From Candidatus Companilactobacillus pullicola (GTDB lineage: Bacteria; Bacillota; Bacilli; Lactobacillales; Lactobacillaceae), in assembly GCA_019116025.1 (NCBI GenBank), contig DXCM01000061.1, positions 1 through 64,000 on the forward strand: 64,000 nt of DNA. The letters are read 5' to 3'. Positions 1 through 23,575 of the stretch are shown one piece after another (position 1 is the first letter of the stretch; every line of letters begins with the position of its first letter). The position numbers and the translations under genes were made by a program. The notes under the pieces are model-generated. The model saw only the letters and a program-made list of their open reading frames with translations, did no database searches and was not told the origin of the DNA.

Positions 1-1
1 A

Positions 2-79
2 ATTGATAGCGAAAATTGGATTCTTACTCAAACTTGGTTGTGGCGTAAATCTGCCGTCCTCCACAACAAGAAAATTTGA
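2..79 (+). CDS. C-terminal tail of an open frame entering from the left edge
   Basis: An open frame runs from the window edge to a TGA at 77-79 and encodes about 25 residues (it contains NWILTQTWLWRKS). From about position 52 it reads into the dispersed repeat that is also found at 10782, so the last eight or so codons are repeat-derived. This may be the end of a real upstream gene whose 3' end was replaced by the repeat, or only a chance frame. No family can be named from so short a tail. Confidence 0.25.
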   Translation: MDSENWILTQTWLWRKSAVLHNKKI

Positions 80-136
80 CTGGAACGCCATGGGCACGAC
101 TTGAAACTAATAATTTTGCACTTCGCGCAAAATCAT
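52..136 (+). repeat. Left half of structured repeat family 1 (copy A, truncated)
   Basis: Positions 52-136 match 10782-10866 with a single difference (G/A at 56). The identity stops abruptly after the AATCAT at 131-136, where the sequence passes directly into LysR coding sequence. The right half of the element, with the partner strand of the outer stem, is missing. This is therefore a breakpoint inside the element and not an intact copy. Confidence 0.85.
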
Positions 137-970
137 AGTTTTACGCAAGCGGCAGTTGACTGCAATATTTCTCAGTCAGCTATTTCACAACAAATGAAGG
201 AGCTGGAAAATCGTTTAGGTGTGAGATTGTTGAATCGAAAAGGGCGCAGTTTTGAAGTGACTGAAGCTGGACAATATTTTTATACACACAGTCAGGATGT
301 TTTGGCTGATGTCGATCAACTAGTTAAAAATACTATCAGGATCGAGAAAAATGACGAAGTGGAACTTCGTGTTGGTTATTTGCGTAGTTTCGGTACGGCT
401 GAATTTTTACAGACAGTTTCTAAATTTACTCAGGAATTTCCTAAAGTTAAAATCAAAATCAGTAGTGGGACGCACGAAGAACTTTATGAATTATTGCGGA
501 CAGGAAAATTAGATTTGAATTTCTCCGATCAACGTCGTGCTTTGTCGAATGAATATCAAAATGAATTTTTAACGTCTAGTGAGTTCATGGTTGCGGTCAA
601 TCGATCTTTGCCAGTCGACGATAAGAAAATTGATGTCGCTGACTTGGCTGATATACCTTGTATTTTGATTATCGATGGGAATCAGCAGGGGACAGAAGAG
701 GACTACTATCGGGATGTTTTAGGCGTGAAAAGTGAATTCATTTTAGCTAAAAATTACGATGAGGCACAGATGTTGATTGCCTCCAACCAAGGTTATTTGA
801 TCATTAACCATCGAATGCGCAAACAATTGGATCAAAATATTGTAAAGATGATTCCTTTAGTCAAGGGTGATCGTAAGTTGATTCAAAATTATTACGCCTA
901 TTGGCAGGCTGATAATTCTGGTTATTATATTGAGACATTTGCAGATTTATTGAAGCAGAGTTTTGCATAA
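101..970 (+). CDS. LysR-family regulator, 5' end fused to a repeat
   Basis: A LysR-type transcriptional regulator of 289 aa if started at TTG 101. The winged HTH is clear (SFTQAAVDCNISQSAISQQM, about residues 13-32), followed by a linker helix and a substrate-binding domain with the normal length to the C terminus. The first 12 codons (101-136) lie entirely within the truncated repeat copy A, and the usual N-terminal lead-in is replaced. There is no Shine-Dalgarno before TTG 101. The ATG at 90 opens only a four-codon frame (MGTT) that ends in TGA, and the LysR frame is stopped at 77-79. The gene may be translated poorly or be a recent pseudogene. Curiously, the repeat-derived residues (HFAQNH) fit the LysR pattern passably. 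Target genes are not evident. Confidence 0.8.
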   Translation: MKLIILHFAQNHSFTQAAVDCNISQSAISQQMKELENRLGVRLLNRKGRSFEVTEAGQYFYTHSQDVLADVDQLVKNTIRIEKNDEVELRVGYLRSFGTAEFLQTVSKFTQEFPKVKIKISSGTHEELYELLRTGKLDLNFSDQRRALSNEYQNEFLTSSEFMVAVNRSLPVDDKKIDVADLADIPCILIIDGNQQGTEEDYYRDVLGVKSEFILAKNYDEAQMLIASNQGYLIINHRMRKQLDQNIVKMIPLVKGDRKLIQNYYAYWQADNSGYYIETFADLLKQSFA

Positions 971-4838: not shown

Positions 4839-4883
4839 CAAAGGTCCTAATAACTCAATTTGAGTTGTTGGGGCCTTTTTTTA
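4839..4883 (+). terminator. Intrinsic terminator of pepN
   Basis: AAAGGTCCTAATAACTCA pairs with the following TGAGTTGTTGGGGCCTTT and is followed by a T-run. Confidence 0.9.
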
Positions 4884-5016
4884 TACGTAAAGCAGTTAAA
4901 CACATATTATTTTTCTAAAAAATGAACTATCCCGGAAATAAATATGCAATATGTCTAAACATGACATTACATATAAACGATTAGGGTTTATTATATAAGT
5001 AGAGTTATAAAATACG

Positions 5017-7368
5017 ATGATGGAATTTGTGAAGGGAGCGATTGGTATCAAAAAGTTATCAATTTTATATGTGGGAATAATCCTATTAGGATTTCTTTTA
5101 ATATTAAATTTTTCAACAAATAACGCTTATGCTGCCAATCAAGTGCAGATTTCATTGACTAAAGTATTGAGCAACACGGTAGACAATAAGGGTGTAGATC
5201 ACACTTTGCCCAAAGGTCTAACTAATATCAACGAGTTATTTAATATTCCAACGATTACTAATAATGACACTGAAGTTTTACCTGCAAATACTGGTGATAA
5301 TAAGGGCAGTGCCGATGTAGCGGTATTAACACAGTATGGTCAAACTAATAAAGTTGGTGCCATTTGGTCAAAAAGGACACAAACTGATACGGCTAAGCAA
5401 AATTATATTGATATAAATAAACGTCAGACGATGTCTATGTGGATGTTTTTTGGTGGTGTCGATAGTTTTGGTGGTGCTGATACTGGTGATGGGATGGCCT
5501 TTGTTTTACAAAATGTTTCCGACAATGCCTTTACTAATGCAGGTGATACGTCCAAAGTTCCTGGTGAAGCCTTGGGTGTCTGGGGAGCAATTATCTCTCC
5601 AATAGATATTTCAATACCATCCTTGGCTAAAACGGCTATTCAAAAGAGTTGGGCGATGGAGTTTGATACCTATCCTAATTTTGGTGATCCTAAAGATACT
5701 AAAACCTATGACAGTGATTTTGACCAGTATGTTAATAGTGGTGTTAATCATATTGCCAGTAATTATCCAGCACTAGAATCAACTTATGCGATTGGTGATA
5801 GAGGTGCGTATATGAACCATGATAATTTGATTACAAGCATTCCCACTACATCAAGGCCGACAAACTTCTTAACTGATGGTTATTGGCATCATGTCACTTT
5901 GACTTGGAATCCAGCTCCTAGTGGTTCTACTGAGGCTACGATGACTTTAAATTATGATGATAAGAATATGGACGGAACACCTAAATTAACCAGTGCCGGT
6001 AAAGTGAATACCAAAGTTATGAAAGTTGATACGACTGCTTTTGATCTCAATGGTAGTAATAAACTTTACTGGGGCTTTACAGGTTCAACTGGTTTGAGTT
6101 CTGAAAATAATCTAATTATTTTTGAATCAATTCCATCTTTGGTTGAGGCTGATACTACGACTTCAATTATTGATGAAACTTCTGGAAATCGTGAAATAAC
6201 TGACGCGACAACTGAAGCTCCCAATGCTAATGTAGTTCATCAAGGCGATAAAGTTAGTGTCAATTATGATTTGAATTACCTAACTGGTTCTAAACCTTGG
6301 GCAGATATTAATGCAACAATTAAACTTCCCGATAAGATTGATTACAGTAGTGCCTTAATTACCTATACAGATGATGCTGGTAAAACTACTACTGAAACAA
6401 TTGGTGAATTTAGCGGGATGACTAATAATCAAATCACGCATAAATTGGGACAGTCTCTGTATAAGACCGGAATTAAGTCCGCCAATATCAAATTTGAAGG
6501 AACTGTTAATGCTGGTACAACGGCTACAGAAACTGATGTTGCTGCAGCACATGCTAGTTTCTATGGTAATGATCTGCAAAAGGATGTTATGACGAAAGCC
6601 TTTGTTATCAAGCAACCAAATAAAATTACTTTAACGAAGACGGGGAAGGATGTCACAACTAGTTTTAATAAGGAAGTTCTATTGAATGGTAAAGTTTCTT
6701 ACAGTGATAAAACTAAAACAGTTGATCCTTCTAAATTAACCGTTGTTGCCAACGTAAATGGCGAAATTGCCAAAACCTCAATGAATTCAATTCTAGCTAG
6801 CGGTTCAACTGATACTTTTGCCTTGCCAGTATCTTCACAACTATTCTCTAATTTGCATGAAGGTGCTAATACGGTGACAATTTATGTTTATAACAATGAT
6901 GATTACAATGTTTCGGACGTGATTACTTATACGGTAACCATTTCAGGAACGGTTTCTTTATCCGTTAATCCAGAAAGTAATTTTAAGACGACTCAATCAT
7001 TTGGCAGTGATTCAATCATTCCCAGAGCTGATGATTGGTCGATTGGTGTGACTGATAGTCGTCAAAAGGGTGCTACTTGGAAACTTTATGCTTCCGCAAC
7101 GCCATTAGTTAATGGAAATAATCAGAGTTGGACAAGTTCTAAAGATGGTGAAAGTTTGATTTTCATCGACAAGTCTGGTGATACCGATAGTTTGGTTAAC
7201 AATAAAGTTGAAATCAGTGAGGCGGTTAAGAGTCAAACGGATTCTCAAGTCTTTGATGTTGATAATCAATGGTCAAAGGATAACGGAATCCTGTTGGAGC
7301 GTAGTTCATTTGAAACTGCCGGTAGGTACACTTCGACGATCACGTGGAACCTTCAAGACAGTATTTAA
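5017..7368 (+). CDS. Secreted L-type lectin / WxL surface protein
   Basis: A secreted protein of up to 783 aa. The N terminus has a signal peptide with a long hydrophobic core ending in AYAANQ. Residues about 60-375 form an L-type (legume-like) lectin domain, seen in GDGMAFVLQN, SWAMEFDTYPN, WHHVTLTWNP and LYWGFTGSTG. Two beta-rich linker domains follow, and residues about 645-783 look like a WxL cell-wall-binding domain, with a proximal TWKLY and a distal TSTITWNLQDSI. It probably binds glycans at the surface and attaches non-covalently to peptidoglycan. The start is uncertain: ATG 5017 has no ribosome site, whereas GAAGGGAG (5031-5038) lies 8 bases before ATC 5047, which would give the typical signal-peptide start I/M-KKLSILY. 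The next gene is a paralogue. Confidence 0.85.
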   Translation: MMEFVKGAIGIKKLSILYVGIILLGFLLILNFSTNNAYAANQVQISLTKVLSNTVDNKGVDHTLPKGLTNINELFNIPTITNNDTEVLPANTGDNKGSADVAVLTQYGQTNKVGAIWSKRTQTDTAKQNYIDINKRQTMSMWMFFGGVDSFGGADTGDGMAFVLQNVSDNAFTNAGDTSKVPGEALGVWGAIISPIDISIPSLAKTAIQKSWAMEFDTYPNFGDPKDTKTYDSDFDQYVNSGVNHIASNYPALESTYAIGDRGAYMNHDNLITSIPTTSRPTNFLTDGYWHHVTLTWNPAPSGSTEATMTLNYDDKNMDGTPKLTSAGKVNTKVMKVDTTAFDLNGSNKLYWGFTGSTGLSSENNLIIFESIPSLVEADTTTSIIDETSGNREITDATTEAPNANVVHQGDKVSVNYDLNYLTGSKPWADINATIKLPDKIDYSSALITYTDDAGKTTTETIGEFSGMTNNQITHKLGQSLYKTGIKSANIKFEGTVNAGTTATETDVAAAHASFYGNDLQKDVMTKAFVIKQPNKITLTKTGKDVTTSFNKEVLLNGKVSYSDKTKTVDPSKLTVVANVNGEIAKTSMNSILASGSTDTFALPVSSQLFSNLHEGANTVTIYVYNNDDYNVSDVITYTVTISGTVSLSVNPESNFKTTQSFGSDSIIPRADDWSIGVTDSRQKGATWKLYASATPLVNGNNQSWTSSKDGESLIFIDKSGDTDSLVNNKVEISEAVKSQTDSQVFDVDNQWSKDNGILLERSSFETAGRYTSTITWNLQDSI

Positions 7369-7561: not shown

Positions 7562-9817
7562 ATGAGGAAATTTTTTTTAAAGGCTTTATTTCTGATGGCT
7601 GCAACGGGGGCAGTTATTGGAATTGATGAAACCAGAGTTCAAGCTGGTACGTCGCAACAGGATTCTATGACAGAAACACGGGAGGGGCTGGCTAAAGCAC
7701 CAGATAATCTTGGATTGAATGAGTCACAATTTTTACATGGTGATTTTTCAGGATTTGGGAGTAGTGCTAAGAATAGTGCTATTTTGCAAAACTCAACAAT
7801 GCATTCAACGGGAACATCTTATGATCCGTTGATGGCAATTAGAATGACTAATTACACCGATCAGGAAGGCGCTATCTGGTCTAATGTTGATAACGGAAAT
7901 TACGTTAATATCAATAATAAACAGACTTTGTCATGTTGGTTATACTTTGGACCATCACAGCATATTCATAGTGGTGATTCCTTTGGTGATGGGATGGCCT
8001 TCGTATTGCAAAACCCAGCTAACGGTGTTTCATCATTCTCTCACAATGGTACAAAAATTGGGACGGGTGAAACCTTAGGAGTTTGGGGCATGGATACTGA
8101 TAAATCAGTTACATCGACTCAAACAATTGCTGATACAGCCATTCAAGATAGTTGGGCTTTGGAATTTGATACTAATGATAATAAGTCAGGCGTGTTAAAC
8201 GATGATTTTGATGCTGAAAGTGATATCACAGGGCAACATATTGCTTATGGTTACCCAGGTGATGCTAGTACATATGTCAGACATAAGGCAGATTTAGTAG
8301 GTTTAAGTAACTACTACTCTATGAATCATTCTGGTGTTCAAAATATTACAACGTTGCACGATGATAATTGGCATCATTTAACGATTTCGTGGGATCCCAC
8401 AACATTCAGAATTACTTATAAGTATAATGATAAGAATTTGGATGGGTCTAAGAGTGATACACCTTTAGTATCAACCAGCGATCCAGTTCATGCGACTGAA
8501 TTTGGTGGAAAGAATGCTATGTCTAATAAGTTGCAGTGGGGCTTCACAGCAACTAGTGGTGCAGCTTATGAGCCTAATTTGATTGCGTTGGAATCTATTC
8601 CTTCTTCTGTTGAAGGGACAGTTACTTCGGACATAACTGACAATACACAAAACAAAACATTCTCTGAAACAGATACTAATCGAAATGTTAATTCTGGTGA
8701 TAGTTTGAGTTTTAATTACCATCTACGTTTTGATAGTGGCGAAAACAAATGGTTAAATGATGTAGCTCAGATCACATTTCCAAGCAATGTTACTTTTACA
8801 AACGGTGACGCTAATCAAGTATTAGGTTATGTAACTTACAATGATGGCAGTGATGCTAAAGCTGAGCCAATCTATGCTAGTGAAATTGATAAAGAAACAG
8901 GTAGACTAAAACACGGTATAGCTAAAGATTTATATGTCAGTTCTGATGGAACCTATCGACCTTCAGAAGCTACGATTACAATCAATGGTGTTGCTAATGA
9001 CGTTAAAAGTGATACCGTAGTTAAATCAGTTAGTGCCCATTTTGATAGTGATAATTTGATTACTGATGCTGATACTCCAGATTTTACTATTAAAAAAGCT
9101 AAGGCAATCAGCTTAGCTTTGGATCAAAGTAATATTACGGTATCTAATAATAAGGACGCTAATATTACGGGTAAGGTTTCATATGGTGATGGTAGTACCG
9201 TCAACAATTCTGATGTCACAGTTCATGAGAATTTGAACGGCAAAGACTTAACTACTTCAACATTGGACAGTAGCGCTGCCAGTGGTACATTGAATCTAAA
9301 TATTCCTTCAGCTGAGTTGACCCAAACGACTAACGTCTTAAAAGTTTATGTGGAAGATAGCGATGGAAATGTTTCGACAACTTCTACGGTAACGATTACG
9401 AAGAAGGGGAGTTTGTCATTGAAGGTCGACGATTATTCATTTGGAACAGTTAATCAGGCGATGGCTTCGATGTTGATTCCTAGAAAAGGCGATTGGAATA
9501 TTGTCGTTAATGATGGTCGAGAGAATGGGACTAAGACTCCTTGGCGTTTATCGACCTCTACTTCGGGATTGTATAGTGGCGATACTGCTTTTAATGGGAG
9601 TCTAATTTTTAAGAATTCCAATGGTTTAGAATTGCCAATAACTAATGACGAAAGTGTTAATATCGCTGACGGTTACAAGAGTGTCGATGGTGAACAAGTT
9701 ACTAACATCGGTAAATCTTGGAATGAATCCGACGGTATTATGCTCAAATCGAATGGATTTAACTCCAGTGGAAAGTATACTGGAAAGATGAATTGGGTTC
9801 TTTCAGAATCCGTTTAA
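7562..9817 (+). CDS. Second L-type lectin / WxL surface protein
   Basis: A 751-aa paralogue of the preceding gene with the same domain order: signal peptide (MRKFFLKALFLMAATGAVIG, cleavage probably near VQAG), L-type lectin domain (GDGMAFVLQN, SWALEFDTND, NWHHLTISWDP, LQWGFTATSG), linker beta domains, and a C-terminal WxL-like domain with TPWRLSTSTS and KMNWVLSESV. The two proteins are clearly related but strongly diverged, which suggests an old tandem duplication. Each has its own terminator, so they are not one operon. The DUF916 and small LPXTG partners of classical WxL clusters are absent. A role in adhesion or glycan binding is inferred from the lectin fold. Confidence 0.85.
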   Translation: MRKFFLKALFLMAATGAVIGIDETRVQAGTSQQDSMTETREGLAKAPDNLGLNESQFLHGDFSGFGSSAKNSAILQNSTMHSTGTSYDPLMAIRMTNYTDQEGAIWSNVDNGNYVNINNKQTLSCWLYFGPSQHIHSGDSFGDGMAFVLQNPANGVSSFSHNGTKIGTGETLGVWGMDTDKSVTSTQTIADTAIQDSWALEFDTNDNKSGVLNDDFDAESDITGQHIAYGYPGDASTYVRHKADLVGLSNYYSMNHSGVQNITTLHDDNWHHLTISWDPTTFRITYKYNDKNLDGSKSDTPLVSTSDPVHATEFGGKNAMSNKLQWGFTATSGAAYEPNLIALESIPSSVEGTVTSDITDNTQNKTFSETDTNRNVNSGDSLSFNYHLRFDSGENKWLNDVAQITFPSNVTFTNGDANQVLGYVTYNDGSDAKAEPIYASEIDKETGRLKHGIAKDLYVSSDGTYRPSEATITINGVANDVKSDTVVKSVSAHFDSDNLITDADTPDFTIKKAKAISLALDQSNITVSNNKDANITGKVSYGDGSTVNNSDVTVHENLNGKDLTTSTLDSSAASGTLNLNIPSAELTQTTNVLKVYVEDSDGNVSTTSTVTITKKGSLSLKVDDYSFGTVNQAMASMLIPRKGDWNIVVNDGRENGTKTPWRLSTSTSGLYSGDTAFNGSLIFKNSNGLELPITNDESVNIADGYKSVDGEQVTNIGKSWNESDGIMLKSNGFNSSGKYTGKMNWVLSESV

Positions 9818-10781: not shown

Positions 10782-10967
10782 TGCCATCCTCCACAACAAG
10801 AAAATTTGACTGGAACGCCATGGGCACGACTTGAAACTAATAATTTTGCACTTCGCGCAAAATCATGGATTTCCAAGCTCGGCCTTTCCCTAAGCAATAA
10901 ATTGCTAAGGGAATCTCATGGCTGAGTCAATTTTCTTGTTGCTCCGGACTAAATCCGGCTTTGTTTA
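10782..10967 (+). ncRNA. Structured repeat family 1, copy B (candidate RNA)
   Basis: The outer stem is AACAAGAAAATTTGACT (10795-10811) with AGTCAATTTTCTTGTT (10925-10940). Inside are a hairpin ATTTTGC/GCAAAAT and a hairpin CCCTAAGCAA/TTGCTAAGGG. Junction strings GGAACGCCATGGGCAC and TCATGGCTGAG also occur, with few changes, in copy C (13610), whereas the stems differ in sequence but remain paired. A short hairpin CCGGA/TCCGG followed by TTTGTTT closes the plus strand, so transcription in plus orientation is preferred. The strand, promoter and function are inferred. No protein is encoded. It lies upstream of and divergent from the BI-1 gene. Confidence 0.6.
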
Positions 10968-10989
10968 TTAATCATTGTAAAATCTAAAT

Positions 10990-11261
10990 ACTAAAAAGAC
11001 AGACTCTATTAAGAGATTCAAGCATATTTGCATGTCTTAAAATACTTAATGGGTCTGTTTTTGGTTTAGGATTTAAAAGTTTCTATTTTAACCATGTAAG
11101 ATTGGATGGTAACTCTATTCAAGTTTTATTTTTTCTAAATTTTTAGAGAAAAGGGAGAGAAATCTTTCTTAGGACAACTGATTGGTTTCAATTTTTTGTT
11201 AAGGTTTCATCCATGATATAAATATCACAAATGTTACATAGTGTGACAAATTGATAAAAAG
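10990..11261. other. Gene-free stretch between the repeat and the EIIC gene
   Basis: No plausible coding region is visible. It contains a hairpin with a long loop (AAAAAGACAGACTC near 10995 pairing with GGGTCTGTTTTT near 11050), which could end a plus-strand transcript from the candidate RNA at 10782, and a small palindrome TGATATAAATATCA near 11213. Nothing else was recognised. Confidence 0.5.
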
Positions 11262-11263
11262 AA

Positions 11264-11303
11264 AAACTGGAATCTCTAGTATGTTCTAGAAACTCCAGTT
11301 TAT
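11264..11303 (-). terminator. Intrinsic terminator of the EIIC gene
   Basis: AAACTGGA-TCTCTAG pairs with CTAGAAACTCCAGTTT around a short loop; the minus strand continues into a T-rich run. Confidence 0.8.
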
Positions 11304-11319
11304 TTGTTGTGAAATTATT

Positions 11320-12597
11320 TTATGCAGCGTTTAAAGCAGCTTCGCTTTTACGCATTTCGATAGCTGTACTCATGTAGACGAATGGTGCGTAAATCAAAGC
11401 AGCTACTACAATATTTAGAGCGGCGATGACTCCACCTTGCCAACTAGCGGTTGCGATAACAGCACCGATAATTGGTGGTGTTACCCAAGGCGGCATACTT
11501 GTACATGCCGGCATGAAGCCTGATACCGTAGCAAAGTACGCAATACTTACACTGACCATTGGAGCCAAGATGTAAGGTACGAACAAGATTGGATTAAGCA
11601 CTAATGGTAAACCAAAGGCTAATGGTTCATTGATGTTGAAAATACCTGGTGCTGTTGCTAGTGAAGCAACTGACATATAAGGTTTATTCTTACGTCCAAC
11701 GATAAAGATAGCAATTAGTAAACCGATTGTTACACCAGTACCACCCATGTTAACAAATGAGTCCATAAATGGTTTGTTAACGATATAAGGAATTTCCTTA
11801 CCAGCCTTTAAAGCAGCAGCGTTAGCTTGAATAGCTGGAGCATTGATTGTTTGCATGAATGGTTCGATCATGTTGGCACCATGAAGACCAAAGAACCATA
11901 AGAATGGTGTGATGAAAGCAATCAATAGGGCAGTTGGATAACTATTAGCCATACCCATAAATGGTACTTGAACGGCCTTATAGAAGGCTGTAACTACGTT
12001 TTCGATGTGCATTGCATTTAGTAGCATTGTAACGAAAGCGAAGATTGTAACAGTGAAGATAGCTGGCAATAAAGCCGCGAAGGATTTAGAAACAGCAGGT
12101 GGAACTCCATCGGGCATTTTGATGTTGAACTTATCTACGCCAGATAAGCGTTTGAAGATTTCTGTTGAAATCAAACCAACGATCAAAGCGATGAAAAGAC
12201 CAGCTGAATCCATTCCTTGAGCCCCTCCGACTGCAAAGAATGAAGCTAGTGAAACGATACCGGCAGAAATACTGTCAATATCATAAGTCTTAGCCAAGTT
12301 ATGAGCGACAAGGAATGAAATTAGAATAGAAAGAATTGCAAAAGTACCATTCCAGATATTTCCCCCGAGAAGTGTCCAGACATAAGAATCGCCCAATTTT
12401 TCACTGAAAATTCCATTCATAAAGCTTTGGAATCCAGGAATTGGCAAGTTATTGATCAATACGGCAAAAGCACCAACGATCATTAGTGGCATTGTATATG
12501 CGAAAGCATCACGAATGGCAATTAAATGACGTTGATTACCAATTTTAGTAGCAACTGGTAAAAAATGCTTTTCCATGAAAGCAATAAATTTTTTCAT
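11320..12597 (-). CDS. PTS EIIC permease, lactose/cellobiose family
   Basis: The membrane-spanning sugar-translocating subunit (EIIC) of a cellobiose/lactose-family phosphotransferase system, 425 aa and full length. Typical features are the N-terminal amphipathic MEKHFLPVATKIGNQRHLIAIRDAF, the central MPDGVPPAVSKSFAALLPA, the GLHGANMIEPFMQ loop and INEPLAFGLPLVLNP near the substrate site. It takes up and phosphorylates a disaccharide, probably a beta-glucoside, together with EIIA and EIIB encoded elsewhere. The gene is monocistronic, follows the RpiR regulator gene in the same direction, and has a palindromic operator candidate 50 bases upstream. Confidence 0.92.
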   Translation of the reverse strand: MKKFIAFMEKHFLPVATKIGNQRHLIAIRDAFAYTMPLMIVGAFAVLINNLPIPGFQSFMNGIFSEKLGDSYVWTLLGGNIWNGTFAILSILISFLVAHNLAKTYDIDSISAGIVSLASFFAVGGAQGMDSAGLFIALIVGLISTEIFKRLSGVDKFNIKMPDGVPPAVSKSFAALLPAIFTVTIFAFVTMLLNAMHIENVVTAFYKAVQVPFMGMANSYPTALLIAFITPFLWFFGLHGANMIEPFMQTINAPAIQANAAALKAGKEIPYIVNKPFMDSFVNMGGTGVTIGLLIAIFIVGRKNKPYMSVASLATAPGIFNINEPLAFGLPLVLNPILFVPYILAPMVSVSIAYFATVSGFMPACTSMPPWVTPPIIGAVIATASWQGGVIAALNIVVAALIYAPFVYMSTAIEMRKSEAALNAA

Positions 12598-12650
12598 TGT
12601 TAACCCCCCTTTTTTGAGTATGTTTAATTTATACCATTTTAATGTAAGGG

Positions 12651-12670
12651 GTTACAACGATATTTGTAAC
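12651..12670. promoter_or_regulatory. Palindromic operator candidate for the RpiR regulator
   Basis: GTTACAA (12651-12657) and TTGTAAC (12664-12670) form a perfect inverted repeat with a 6-base spacer. It lies between the regulator's stop codon and the EIIC start, where a promoter for EIIC must be. Assignment to the RpiR protein is by position only. Confidence 0.6.
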
Positions 12671-12675
12671 AACTT

Positions 12676-13434
12676 TTAGTTATCTTTGGCACGTGATAAT
12701 GAAGAAGTTCTACGAATTAATTTTTCAATAAGGAACATAGCGGGAGTCTGAGAAGTCACATTATCGCTGTCAATCATTTGTTCCGTAGCGTAATAAGTTA
12801 AAACGTATTGACTCATTTTGGCAATTGTTGAAGTGGGATTATTTGTAATTGCGATTACCGGAATACCTTGTTTGATGAAGTTAGCAACGTATTTGATCAT
12901 TACATGATTTTCCCCAGAAACAGAACAGACAATTAAGCAGTAATCATCGGCCTCATCTGGATTAGTTTTAATAATTGGATTATCAATTGGTTCCCGAATC
13001 AACAACGACATATTGATCAAACTAGAATAGGTGACTGAACCAAATTCGGCAAGGATACGAGAGGTCCCGGCTCCAATCCAGAGCACGTGCTTACAGTTGA
13101 CTAAAATTTCAGCTACTTCGTCGATTTTATGGCTGTTATCATTGCTATCGGTTTCCGTAATGGATTGAATAATTTCGTTGGTATCTAAATCGGTTGGATA
13201 AGTTTTGGTAAAATTCTTGTTGCCCATGTGTAATTTGAGGCGTGTTTTGAATTCAGACCAACCCACGCATTCAAATTTTTGACAGAAACGCTGGATACTG
13301 GCAGTGCTACAATAAGTTTCATCCGCCAGGTCACGAATCCGCATGTAAATAACGTTGTCCATATTTTTAACGATGAATCGATAAATAATCATATCAGTTT
13401 CGGTGAGATCAGGAGTGTAATCAAGAAATAACAT
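12676..13434 (-). CDS. MurR/RpiR-family sugar-phosphate-responsive regulator
   Basis: A 252-aa regulator with an N-terminal RpiR-type HTH (residues 1-75; IRDLADETYCSTASIQRFCQKFECVGWSEF) and a C-terminal SIS domain (about 105-235; VLWIGAGTSRILAEFG, LIVCSVSGENHVMIKYV, PVIAITNNPTSTIAKM) that binds phosphosugars. The family usually represses a neighbouring sugar-uptake operon. Here the EIIC gene follows directly with an inverted repeat between them, so control of that permease is the simplest reading. Whether it represses or activates cannot be seen. Confidence 0.9.
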   Translation of the reverse strand: MLFLDYTPDLTETDMIIYRFIVKNMDNVIYMRIRDLADETYCSTASIQRFCQKFECVGWSEFKTRLKLHMGNKNFTKTYPTDLDTNEIIQSITETDSNDNSHKIDEVAEILVNCKHVLWIGAGTSRILAEFGSVTYSSLINMSLLIREPIDNPIIKTNPDEADDYCLIVCSVSGENHVMIKYVANFIKQGIPVIAITNNPTSTIAKMSQYVLTYYATEQMIDSDNVTSQTPAMFLIEKLIRRTSSLSRAKDN

Positions 13435-13609
13435 TTTTTCTACCAGCTTTACATTCGATTAAAAGTTAAATTGTACCTATTAATATAGTACCTTATTCTG
13501 TGATGTCATTTTTCGAAATCAACGAAATTATTATGCGATTGCTCACAGTCATTTTAAATCTCTACTATGGTTTATTGAGGGGATTTTTACTTAAGTTTGA
13601 TTAAATATG

Positions 13610-13790
13610 TCACCCTCCGCAACAAGTCCGATTGGTCTGGAACGCTGTGGACACTGATTTGAGCCAATTGAAAATCACAATTGTCTCAAATACAGGTCTT
13701 TTACTAAGTGGGAAACCCACCAAGTAAAATTTCACGGCTGAGACCAATCGGACTTGTTACTCCAGGTTAAATAGAGGTCCTATTTAATAT
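13610..13790 (+). ncRNA. Structured repeat family 1, copy C (candidate RNA)
   Basis: The outer stem is an 18-bp perfect helix, AACAAGTCCGATTGGTCT (13621-13638) with its exact complement at 13741-13758. Inner hairpins are ATTTGAG..CAATTG / CAATTG..CTCAAAT (13657-13691) and TTTTACT..GTGGG / CCCAC..AGTAAAA (13699-13729). The conserved junctions GGAACGCTGTGGACAC and TCACGGCTGAG match copy B. A closing hairpin TTAAATAG/CTATTTAA lies at 13767-13787. Almost every outer-stem pair beyond AACAAG/CTTGTT is changed relative to copy B with pairing kept, which is strong evidence for selection on RNA or cruciform structure. Function unknown. Confidence 0.65.
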
Positions 13791-13810: not shown

Positions 13811-13868
13811 AATAGCGTCTATTTAGAATTCCACGATTTTTTTGAGAAAATTCTAAGTAGGCGCTATT
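13811..13868 (-). terminator. Intrinsic terminator of the AraC regulator gene
   Basis: AATAGCGTCTATTTAGAATT pairs with AATTCTAAGTAGGCGCTATT; on the minus strand the stem is followed by a T-run at 13807-13811. Confidence 0.8.
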
Positions 13869-23283: not shown

Positions 23284-23575
23284 AAAAAAGTCTTTCATCG
23301 CAGTTATTAAATTAATAATAACTGGGACGAAAGACTTTTCGCGGTACCACCCAAGTTGCCTATATAAAAATAGACCACCTCAATAAGAGCACAAACATGC
23401 TCCACCGATGGTAACGTACCGGTTAACGTCTGTACTTACTTTGACATGGTCATTTCAGCCAGAAACATAAGAAAGTGTTATTCGGAATTTCCATTTACTA
23501 GTTGGGTTCTCACCAATCCCAATTCACTGTTAGTGTGGAAAAACTTACTCTTCTTTCTTGTCGTTTTTTATCTTG
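23284..23575 (-). promoter_or_regulatory. T-box riboswitch with Asn specifier, controlling asnA
   Basis: On the minus strand the T-box core GGGTGGTACCGCG is at 23352-23340. It is followed by a terminator formed by AAAGTCTTTCGTCCCAGTTAT and ATAACTGCGATGAAAGACTTT and a T-run (about 23338-23284). Upstream, Stem I is closed by AAGAAAG with CTTTCTT and contains the GGTGAGAA distal-loop element. In the specifier bulge GAATAACAC the codon AAC is at 23479-23477. AAC reads Asn, in agreement with the asnA gene it controls. Confidence 0.93.

Follow-up and report, generated by a model that had tools for sequence, protein, structure and literature searches.

Integron attC sites are recognised by structure as folded single-stranded DNA, and they combine variable stem sequences with conserved extrahelical bases. 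The bcr1 repeat of the Bacillus cereus group is transcribed and shows compensatory changes. The repeats bcr1–bcr18 are mostly chromosomal and 100–400 bp long, and a single genome can hold as many as 130 copies of bcr1 (PMC6542083). Sequences of the REPIN/REP type are palindromic, number hundreds per genome, occur as inverted doublets and singlets, and show compensatory stem changes (PMC3116915). Here we describe a repeat from Candidatus Companilactobacillus pullicola, encountered in a stretch of 64,000 nucleotides (nt) of contig DXCM01000061.1 (assembly GCA_019116025.1), which is referred to as the window. The repeat is best read as a new non-autonomous mobile DNA family whose units are branched palindromes and which behaves much like REPINs or bcr1; membership in either group is not claimed.

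A preliminary description of the window had reported two look-alike folded copies as a candidate RNA family. Both copies are confirmed by sequence, by folding against shuffles, and by a genome-wide motif count, and a truncated third copy is added near the start of the contig. Scores in the following list are from R1, a model built from 61 copies.

About 66–136, + strand: truncated third unit (R1 model match 54–193, 38.2 bits).
10784–10951, + strand as drawn: solitary unit of subfamily IV, stem CAACAAGAAAATT (R1 model, 160.2 bits; fold runs).
10794–10811 and 10925–10941: outer arms of the 10784 copy, with GGAACGC at 10812–10818 and CTGA at 10922–10925.
About 10885–10913: hairpin 2 of the 10784 copy with its TAA/TAA internal loop, read from the sequence.
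10952–10996, + strand: 3' tail resembling the tails of other subfamily IV copies (tail comparison among the copies listed).
10997–11062, no strand assigned: terminator-like hairpin 3' of the 10784 unit, seen by eye, missed by the terminator scan, and not counted in the element.
13610–13769, + strand: solitary unit of subfamily III, stem CAACAAGTCCGATTGGTCT (R1 model, 139.6 bits; fold runs).
13811–13868, no strand assigned: terminator-like hairpin 3' of the 13610 unit, from the terminator scan (stem 18), not counted in the element.

The stretches 10784–10951 and 13610–13769 belong to two subfamilies of the same branched palindrome. The unit is about 140–177 nt long. Its outer helix is followed by an internal loop, in which GGAACGY faces CTGA, and then by a short helix that leads to a three-way junction bearing two hairpins; hairpin 2 contains a TAA/TAA (or TAA/CAA) internal loop. 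The outer arms are paired at 18/18 positions in the 13610 copy, as had been described, and carry a single bulged T in the 10784 copy. The common unit terminates at GACTA or GGTTA (10951, 13769). Relative to shuffles, the two copies fold with z-scores of -6.4 and -10.3 on the + strand and -8.4 and -9.9 on the - strand, and in each of the four runs (two copies on two strands) none of 200 shuffles equalled the native fold. The inner hairpins reported previously are part of the common unit, but the "closing hairpin" is not, as it lies downstream and is by eye absent from most copies. The tail at 10952–10996 probably belongs to the element, which is supported by a single-unit insertion elsewhere that carries a tail of ~100 nt.

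The family occurs about 200 times in its own genome and is present in nearly all relatives. The junction motif has 229 matches with at most two mismatches in the 2.93 Mb genome, not all of them full units, versus 12 for a reversed control pattern, and R1 marks at least 150 sites. Rough labels for 150 listed matches, which take in fragments and antisense echoes, assign 75 to subfamily I (stem AAAAATTGGGAATGC), 53 to subfamily II (GTAGAAAATCTGTGGGCC), 12 to subfamily III (window 13610), and 10 to subfamily IV (window 10784). Within the genus, 34 of 36 Companilactobacillus genomes matched, the own genome included; scored units per genome are lower bounds (at least 150, 67, 77, or 14). No match was obtained in G007 and G046, and only one to three in G011, G016, and G044. 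An order-wide draw of 198 genomes gave four with a match, namely the own genome and three genomes that belong to two other genera. Scanning genome contigs with a pattern picked out Companilactobacillus kimchii, C. paralimentarius, and a metagenome-assembled genome of an uncultured Lactobacillus.

No Rfam family reaches its gathering threshold over the copies. Around them, a search up to E 1 gave one unrelated sub-threshold match that lies outside them, and the sole Rfam hit over the window is a T-box leader elsewhere (23320–23570, - strand, 100.2 bits). Viral contigs contain no exact motif match, and one composite used as a query had no match in phage records. The stretch around the first window copy gave no plasmid match; one composite used as a plasmid query found a decayed unit in two genera, in C. 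futsaii and Pediococcus inopinatus, next to WxL genes. The WxL locus is the same on both plasmids (L224 and L225, about 4860–5250) except that the P. inopinatus plasmid carries a terminator-like hairpin of ~78 bp, bordered by TTTTGTA, which the C. futsaii plasmid lacks. In the literature, judged by titles and the starts of abstracts with most subscription papers beyond reach, the repeat was not found described.

To assess covariation, 61 copies from four genomes were aligned with MAFFT without fitting to a structure; the cells of this alignment are related copies rather than independent events. Paired cells amount to 96.7% (78.1% in shuffled alignments). Double changes occur in 38 of the 50 pairs (29.3 shuffled) and in 576 cells (165 shuffled), and the covariation score is 0.508, compared with 0.172 for shuffled and at most 0.100 for slid alignments. 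The count of pair types is barely above the shuffles (87 versus 80.2; 12 of 500 shuffles reach 87). The claim of a dispersed, covarying family is therefore upheld. RNAalifold gives the same core fold for the units of genomes G023, G137, and G130, which range from AT-rich to 66% G+C, although these units were chosen with R1 and are not a wholly independent confirmation. GGAACG, TAA/TAA, and CTGA recur across three genera. Pair changes with one side unique to one copy, counted in 61 of the 65 aligned subfamily I copies, are Watson-Crick double changes in 16 cases, wobbles in 3, and broken pairs in 15; compensation is accordingly either fast or a legacy of lineages outside the sample. Units that are broken, chimeric, or carry deletions persist as well.

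The same procedure (MAFFT, RNAalifold, and cell counts) was used to compare pairing in the repeat and in RNase P. In RNase P from 30 of the 36 genus genomes, Watson-Crick double changes number 164, G·U pairs 190, and A·C pairs 6, a G·U/A·C ratio of 31.7. For the 61 units the corresponding numbers are 567, 48, and 56 on the strand as first drawn (+), a ratio of 0.86, and 593, 87, and 27 on the antisense strand, a ratio of 3.2. The ratio ranges from 1.3 to 2.0 across the units of G023 (35:27 on +, 33:17 on -), G137 (59:39 and 52:31), and G130 (16:8 and 10:7). When arms are matched by Watson-Crick pairing only, 131 outer helices of the own genome contain 2230 Watson-Crick pairs, with G·U at 14 positions, A·C at 29, and other combinations at 121. 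Summed over the outer helices of four sets, G·U occurs 25 times on the + strand and A·C 66 times; eight tRNAs have 173 Watson-Crick pairs, 11 G·U, and no A·C. The clear excess of G·U over A·C expected on the functional strand of an RNA was thus found on neither strand. Given the low ratio compared with RNase P, pairing in the arms resembles that of DNA, and the arms co-vary mainly as Watson-Crick DNA. The favoured strand, if there is one, is the reverse of that first drawn. The view that the copies are an RNA family, unlike a selfish palindrome, finds no support in this comparison, nor in copies that vary in presence between species and form convergent inverted pairs. Compensatory changes, taken in the preliminary description as a sign of a functional RNA, can also be created by template switching of DNA (PMC8794818). 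Template switching by itself should not preserve the unpaired motifs.

Comparison of orthologous sites reveals that units differ in presence between species. In L095 of the own genome, a single unit with its tail, about 284 bp with TTGC at both edges, interrupts flanks that are continuous in L036 of C. kimchii. Three composites of the own stretch L067 are absent in G045 (3/3) and G014 (2/2 assessable; the remaining one did not turn up on that contig), the site in G041 being outside the scoring. The composites L070:3501–4129, L071:3501–4180, and L106:2814–3431 are absent in L034, L037, and L049, and in the reverse direction units of L035 and L042 are absent in the own stretches L093 and L097. 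We infer that these differences are mostly insertions, that is, gains rather than losses. Of 21 units in C. kimchii and C. paralimentarius, 13 have an own counterpart with at least 92% identity, the best reaching 98%, while the flanking stretches are mostly 82–90% identical (range 74–94%), which hints at exchange between species; the seven units of the uncultured Lactobacillus are 65–73% identical to their best own copy. Of 28 units in L031–L053, the two flanks allowed 11 to be placed, which fall at 7 distinct loci, and 17 remained unmapped. The own genome has no unit at four of these loci. At the three where it does (L070:6601, L073:5464, and L115:3501–4116, shared with C. kimchii or C. paralimentarius), the identity of the local own unit is 0.64, 0.86, and 0.69, versus 0.83, 0.93, and 0.92 for the best copy elsewhere, which suggests replacement, conversion, or reuse of the place.

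The commonest form of the repeat is two units arranged tail to tail, although single units also exist. Close neighbours, less than 500 nt apart, are convergent in 58/58 cases in the own genome, 8/8 in G023, and 11/12 in G137 and G130, so that the inverted doublets of a palindromic unit that characterise REPINs are found here. Gaps within the convergent pairs of the own genome are 10–456 nt, and the middles vary, at times containing a terminator-like hairpin (by eye). Pairs account for 116 of 144 units in the own genome, among the matches listed, and 16 of 22 in G023; because the own stretches had been selected for the copies they contain, G023, with its single run of 400 kb, is the only unbiased set for pair frequency. 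For these counts, matches shorter than 100 nt or overlapping a better match were dropped (150 to 144, 23 to 22, and 34 to 33). No unit lies wholly within an open reading frame (ORF) of at least 150 amino acids in the own genome (0/144 among the matches listed) or in G023 (0/22). The 5' ends lie close to gene edges, and neither orientation relative to the 5' gene prevails (opposite in 72, same in 69, and 9 without a neighbour, in the 150 listed matches including fragments and echoes), as judged with a plain ORF picker.

By eye, many intergenic terminator-like hairpins share stems of the CTATTAAGTATTC or CTATTTAGAATTCC type, for example those at 10997–11062 and 13811–13868 of the window, and they are perhaps a second dispersed hairpin family. 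Upstream of the first window copy are two large tandem lectin-like surface proteins, named by eye (5017–7368 and 7562–9817). Relatives of the phosphotransferase system (PTS) and rpiR-like genes of the window have no unit beside them in four other genomes, within the stretches examined; the PTS gene relatives of G022, G023, G003, and G009 are unit-free across about 1.5 kb on each side.

As previously stated, the ORF list of the window has no transposase or reverse transcriptase gene adjoining either copy. The reverse transcriptase family RVT_1 has no match in the own genome and is present in 12 of the 36 genus genomes without tracking copy number, so that mobility by a reverse transcriptase, as of a group II intron or retron, was rejected. 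Y1_Tnp occurs in 18 of the 36 and does not track copy number either. There is no Y1 match in G023, G003, G017, G013, G015, and G008, despite at least 47–77 scored units, whereas G007 has an open Y1 frame yet no unit. RAYT/Y1 was rejected as mobiliser accordingly. The sole Y1 match of the own genome is a broken gene in an IS605-like element of L054, together with a TnpB-like gene (named by eye); no unit was seen in its 3.3 kb stretch.

The units resemble attC sites in variable stems, conserved extrahelical bases, and a presumed reading of the fold by its structure, but they are much larger and branched; cassette arrays were not seen, and an integrase was not searched for. The likeness to REPINs extends to copy number, doublets, and compensation, but REPs are simple hairpins of about 20–60 bp with a RAYT gene, whereas the present units are three-way structures that do not follow Y1. 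Compared by description rather than sequence, bcr elements are likewise group-restricted with traits of mobile elements (PMC6542083), but their mobility is tied to TTTAT repeats, and here no common flank repeat was found, TTTAT not having been specifically sought. Many units start with CCGTC, recalling the CGTC-tagged REPs, which likewise have no known transposase (PMC3733652); however, those have stems of 8–9 bp and loops of 4–5 nt, and the 5' ends in G137 and G130 are mostly not CGTC. As in a miniature inverted-repeat transposable element (MITE), there is no coding capacity, presence is polymorphic, and copy number is high.

Taken together, the copies probably represent one family of mobile DNA elements, short and without coding sequence, which is found in Companilactobacillus and a few other Lactobacillales genera and whose fold is presumably used as DNA. 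Each element would comprise the branched palindrome, a short 5' flank, and, in the own genome, a 3' tail of ~50–100 nt. The fold would act as a hairpin, a cruciform, or a single-stranded intermediate, and the unpaired GGAACG, TAA/TAA, and CTGA may be recognised by a putative recombinase or transposase supplied in trans. Stems would remain Watson-Crick because mismatched arms are lost from the mobile pool; alternatively, the arms might be corrected against each other, either by template switching or by mismatch repair acting on the strand in its folded state. A more specific proposal, possible but doubtful, is a new mobile class whose ends are read, attC-like, as large branched single-stranded or cruciform folds by a putative recombinase, with stems free to vary while they stay Watson-Crick.

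Several observations weigh against a family of mobile DNA elements. The mobilising enzyme was not found in searches that covered only Y1 transposase and reverse transcriptase families, and not DDE enzymes or tyrosine and serine recombinases. The longest word shared by the flanks averages 6.16 nt versus 6.34 ± 0.11 in shuffles (73 of 77 pairs), which gives no sign of a general target-site duplication; three pairs share words of 10–11 nt, the chance level of which was not computed. The places occupied are not always different between species, given the three shared loci, and 2 of 33 units in G137 and G130, both in G130, lie within ORFs of at least 150 amino acids. Compensation of private changes would also be expected from selection on each copy. 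Finally, on the antisense strand G·U does exceed A·C (87:27, and 66:25 in the outer helices of four sets), so that one strand may have a role, as RNA or DNA.

This last point bears on a true structured non-coding RNA, or an RNA-mobilised element, that is transcribed, works as RNA, and has multiplied in the genome. Strong covariation with conserved unpaired bases fits such an RNA, as do the lower folding energy of the - strand in both window copies and its threefold G·U excess, and on the + strand each copy is followed, after about 45 nt, by a terminator-like hairpin. Nevertheless we regard it as unlikely, since G·U is not above A·C on + and only weakly so on -, against 32-fold in RNase P; RVT_1 is lacking in the own genome; and inverted pairs would produce two converging transcripts. 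A terminator-like hairpin within 300 nt is found 3' of only 22 of 133 units and 5' of 11 of 133, in an insensitive scan that missed the 10997 hairpin, and a non-coding RNA gene with its own terminator is unsupported as a general rule. Also of small probability is an ordinary MITE that belongs to a DDE-type insertion sequence and whose fold is a by-product of palindrome-correcting mutation without a role in mobility. The inverted pairs do look like the paired termini of a short element, several pairs in G137 have TTCTTCG...CGAAGAA-like ends (by eye), and template switching can hold stems paired (PMC8794818). Correction alone should, however, erase internal loops, yet the three unpaired motifs recur in three genera, and no constant target duplication was seen in the flanks (TTGC at one site); parent insertion sequences were not searched for.

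The two remaining explanations are very improbable. A giant REPIN moved by a RAYT/Y1 (HUH) transposase would account for inverted doublets, singlets, and hundreds of copies, as in REPINs (PMC3116915), but Y1 is absent from six unit-rich genomes, present in unit-free G007, and broken in the own genome. Palindromes used by the host for protein docking, as terminators, or as mRNA-end structures, and selected at each place, would agree with 5' ends near gene edges, compensated private changes, and an own unit at 3/7 mapped loci. Against such use, the local unit at those three loci is less alike than copies elsewhere, the other four are empty, as are further sites orthologous to those of the L095 unit, the L067 composites, and the other units compared, orientation is even, and some genomes of the genus have few units or none.

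Several other contigs of the own genome (C20, C65, C67, and C82) begin or end within a unit, and the repeat therefore probably fragments this assembly. At window positions 1–137 the truncated third unit, the 5' part of which equals the 10784 copy exactly, runs directly into a LysR-like coding sequence (named by eye), possibly a misassembly at the repeat.

Covariation is commonly counted as proof of RNA function. The abundant family described here passes the tests for it by a wide margin, yet its G·U and A·C pairs, compared with RNase P, point to DNA. If the attC-like reading were true, the family would show textbook "RNA covariation" without being RNA. It fills much of the intergenic space in a food-fermenting genus and seems to break draft assemblies.

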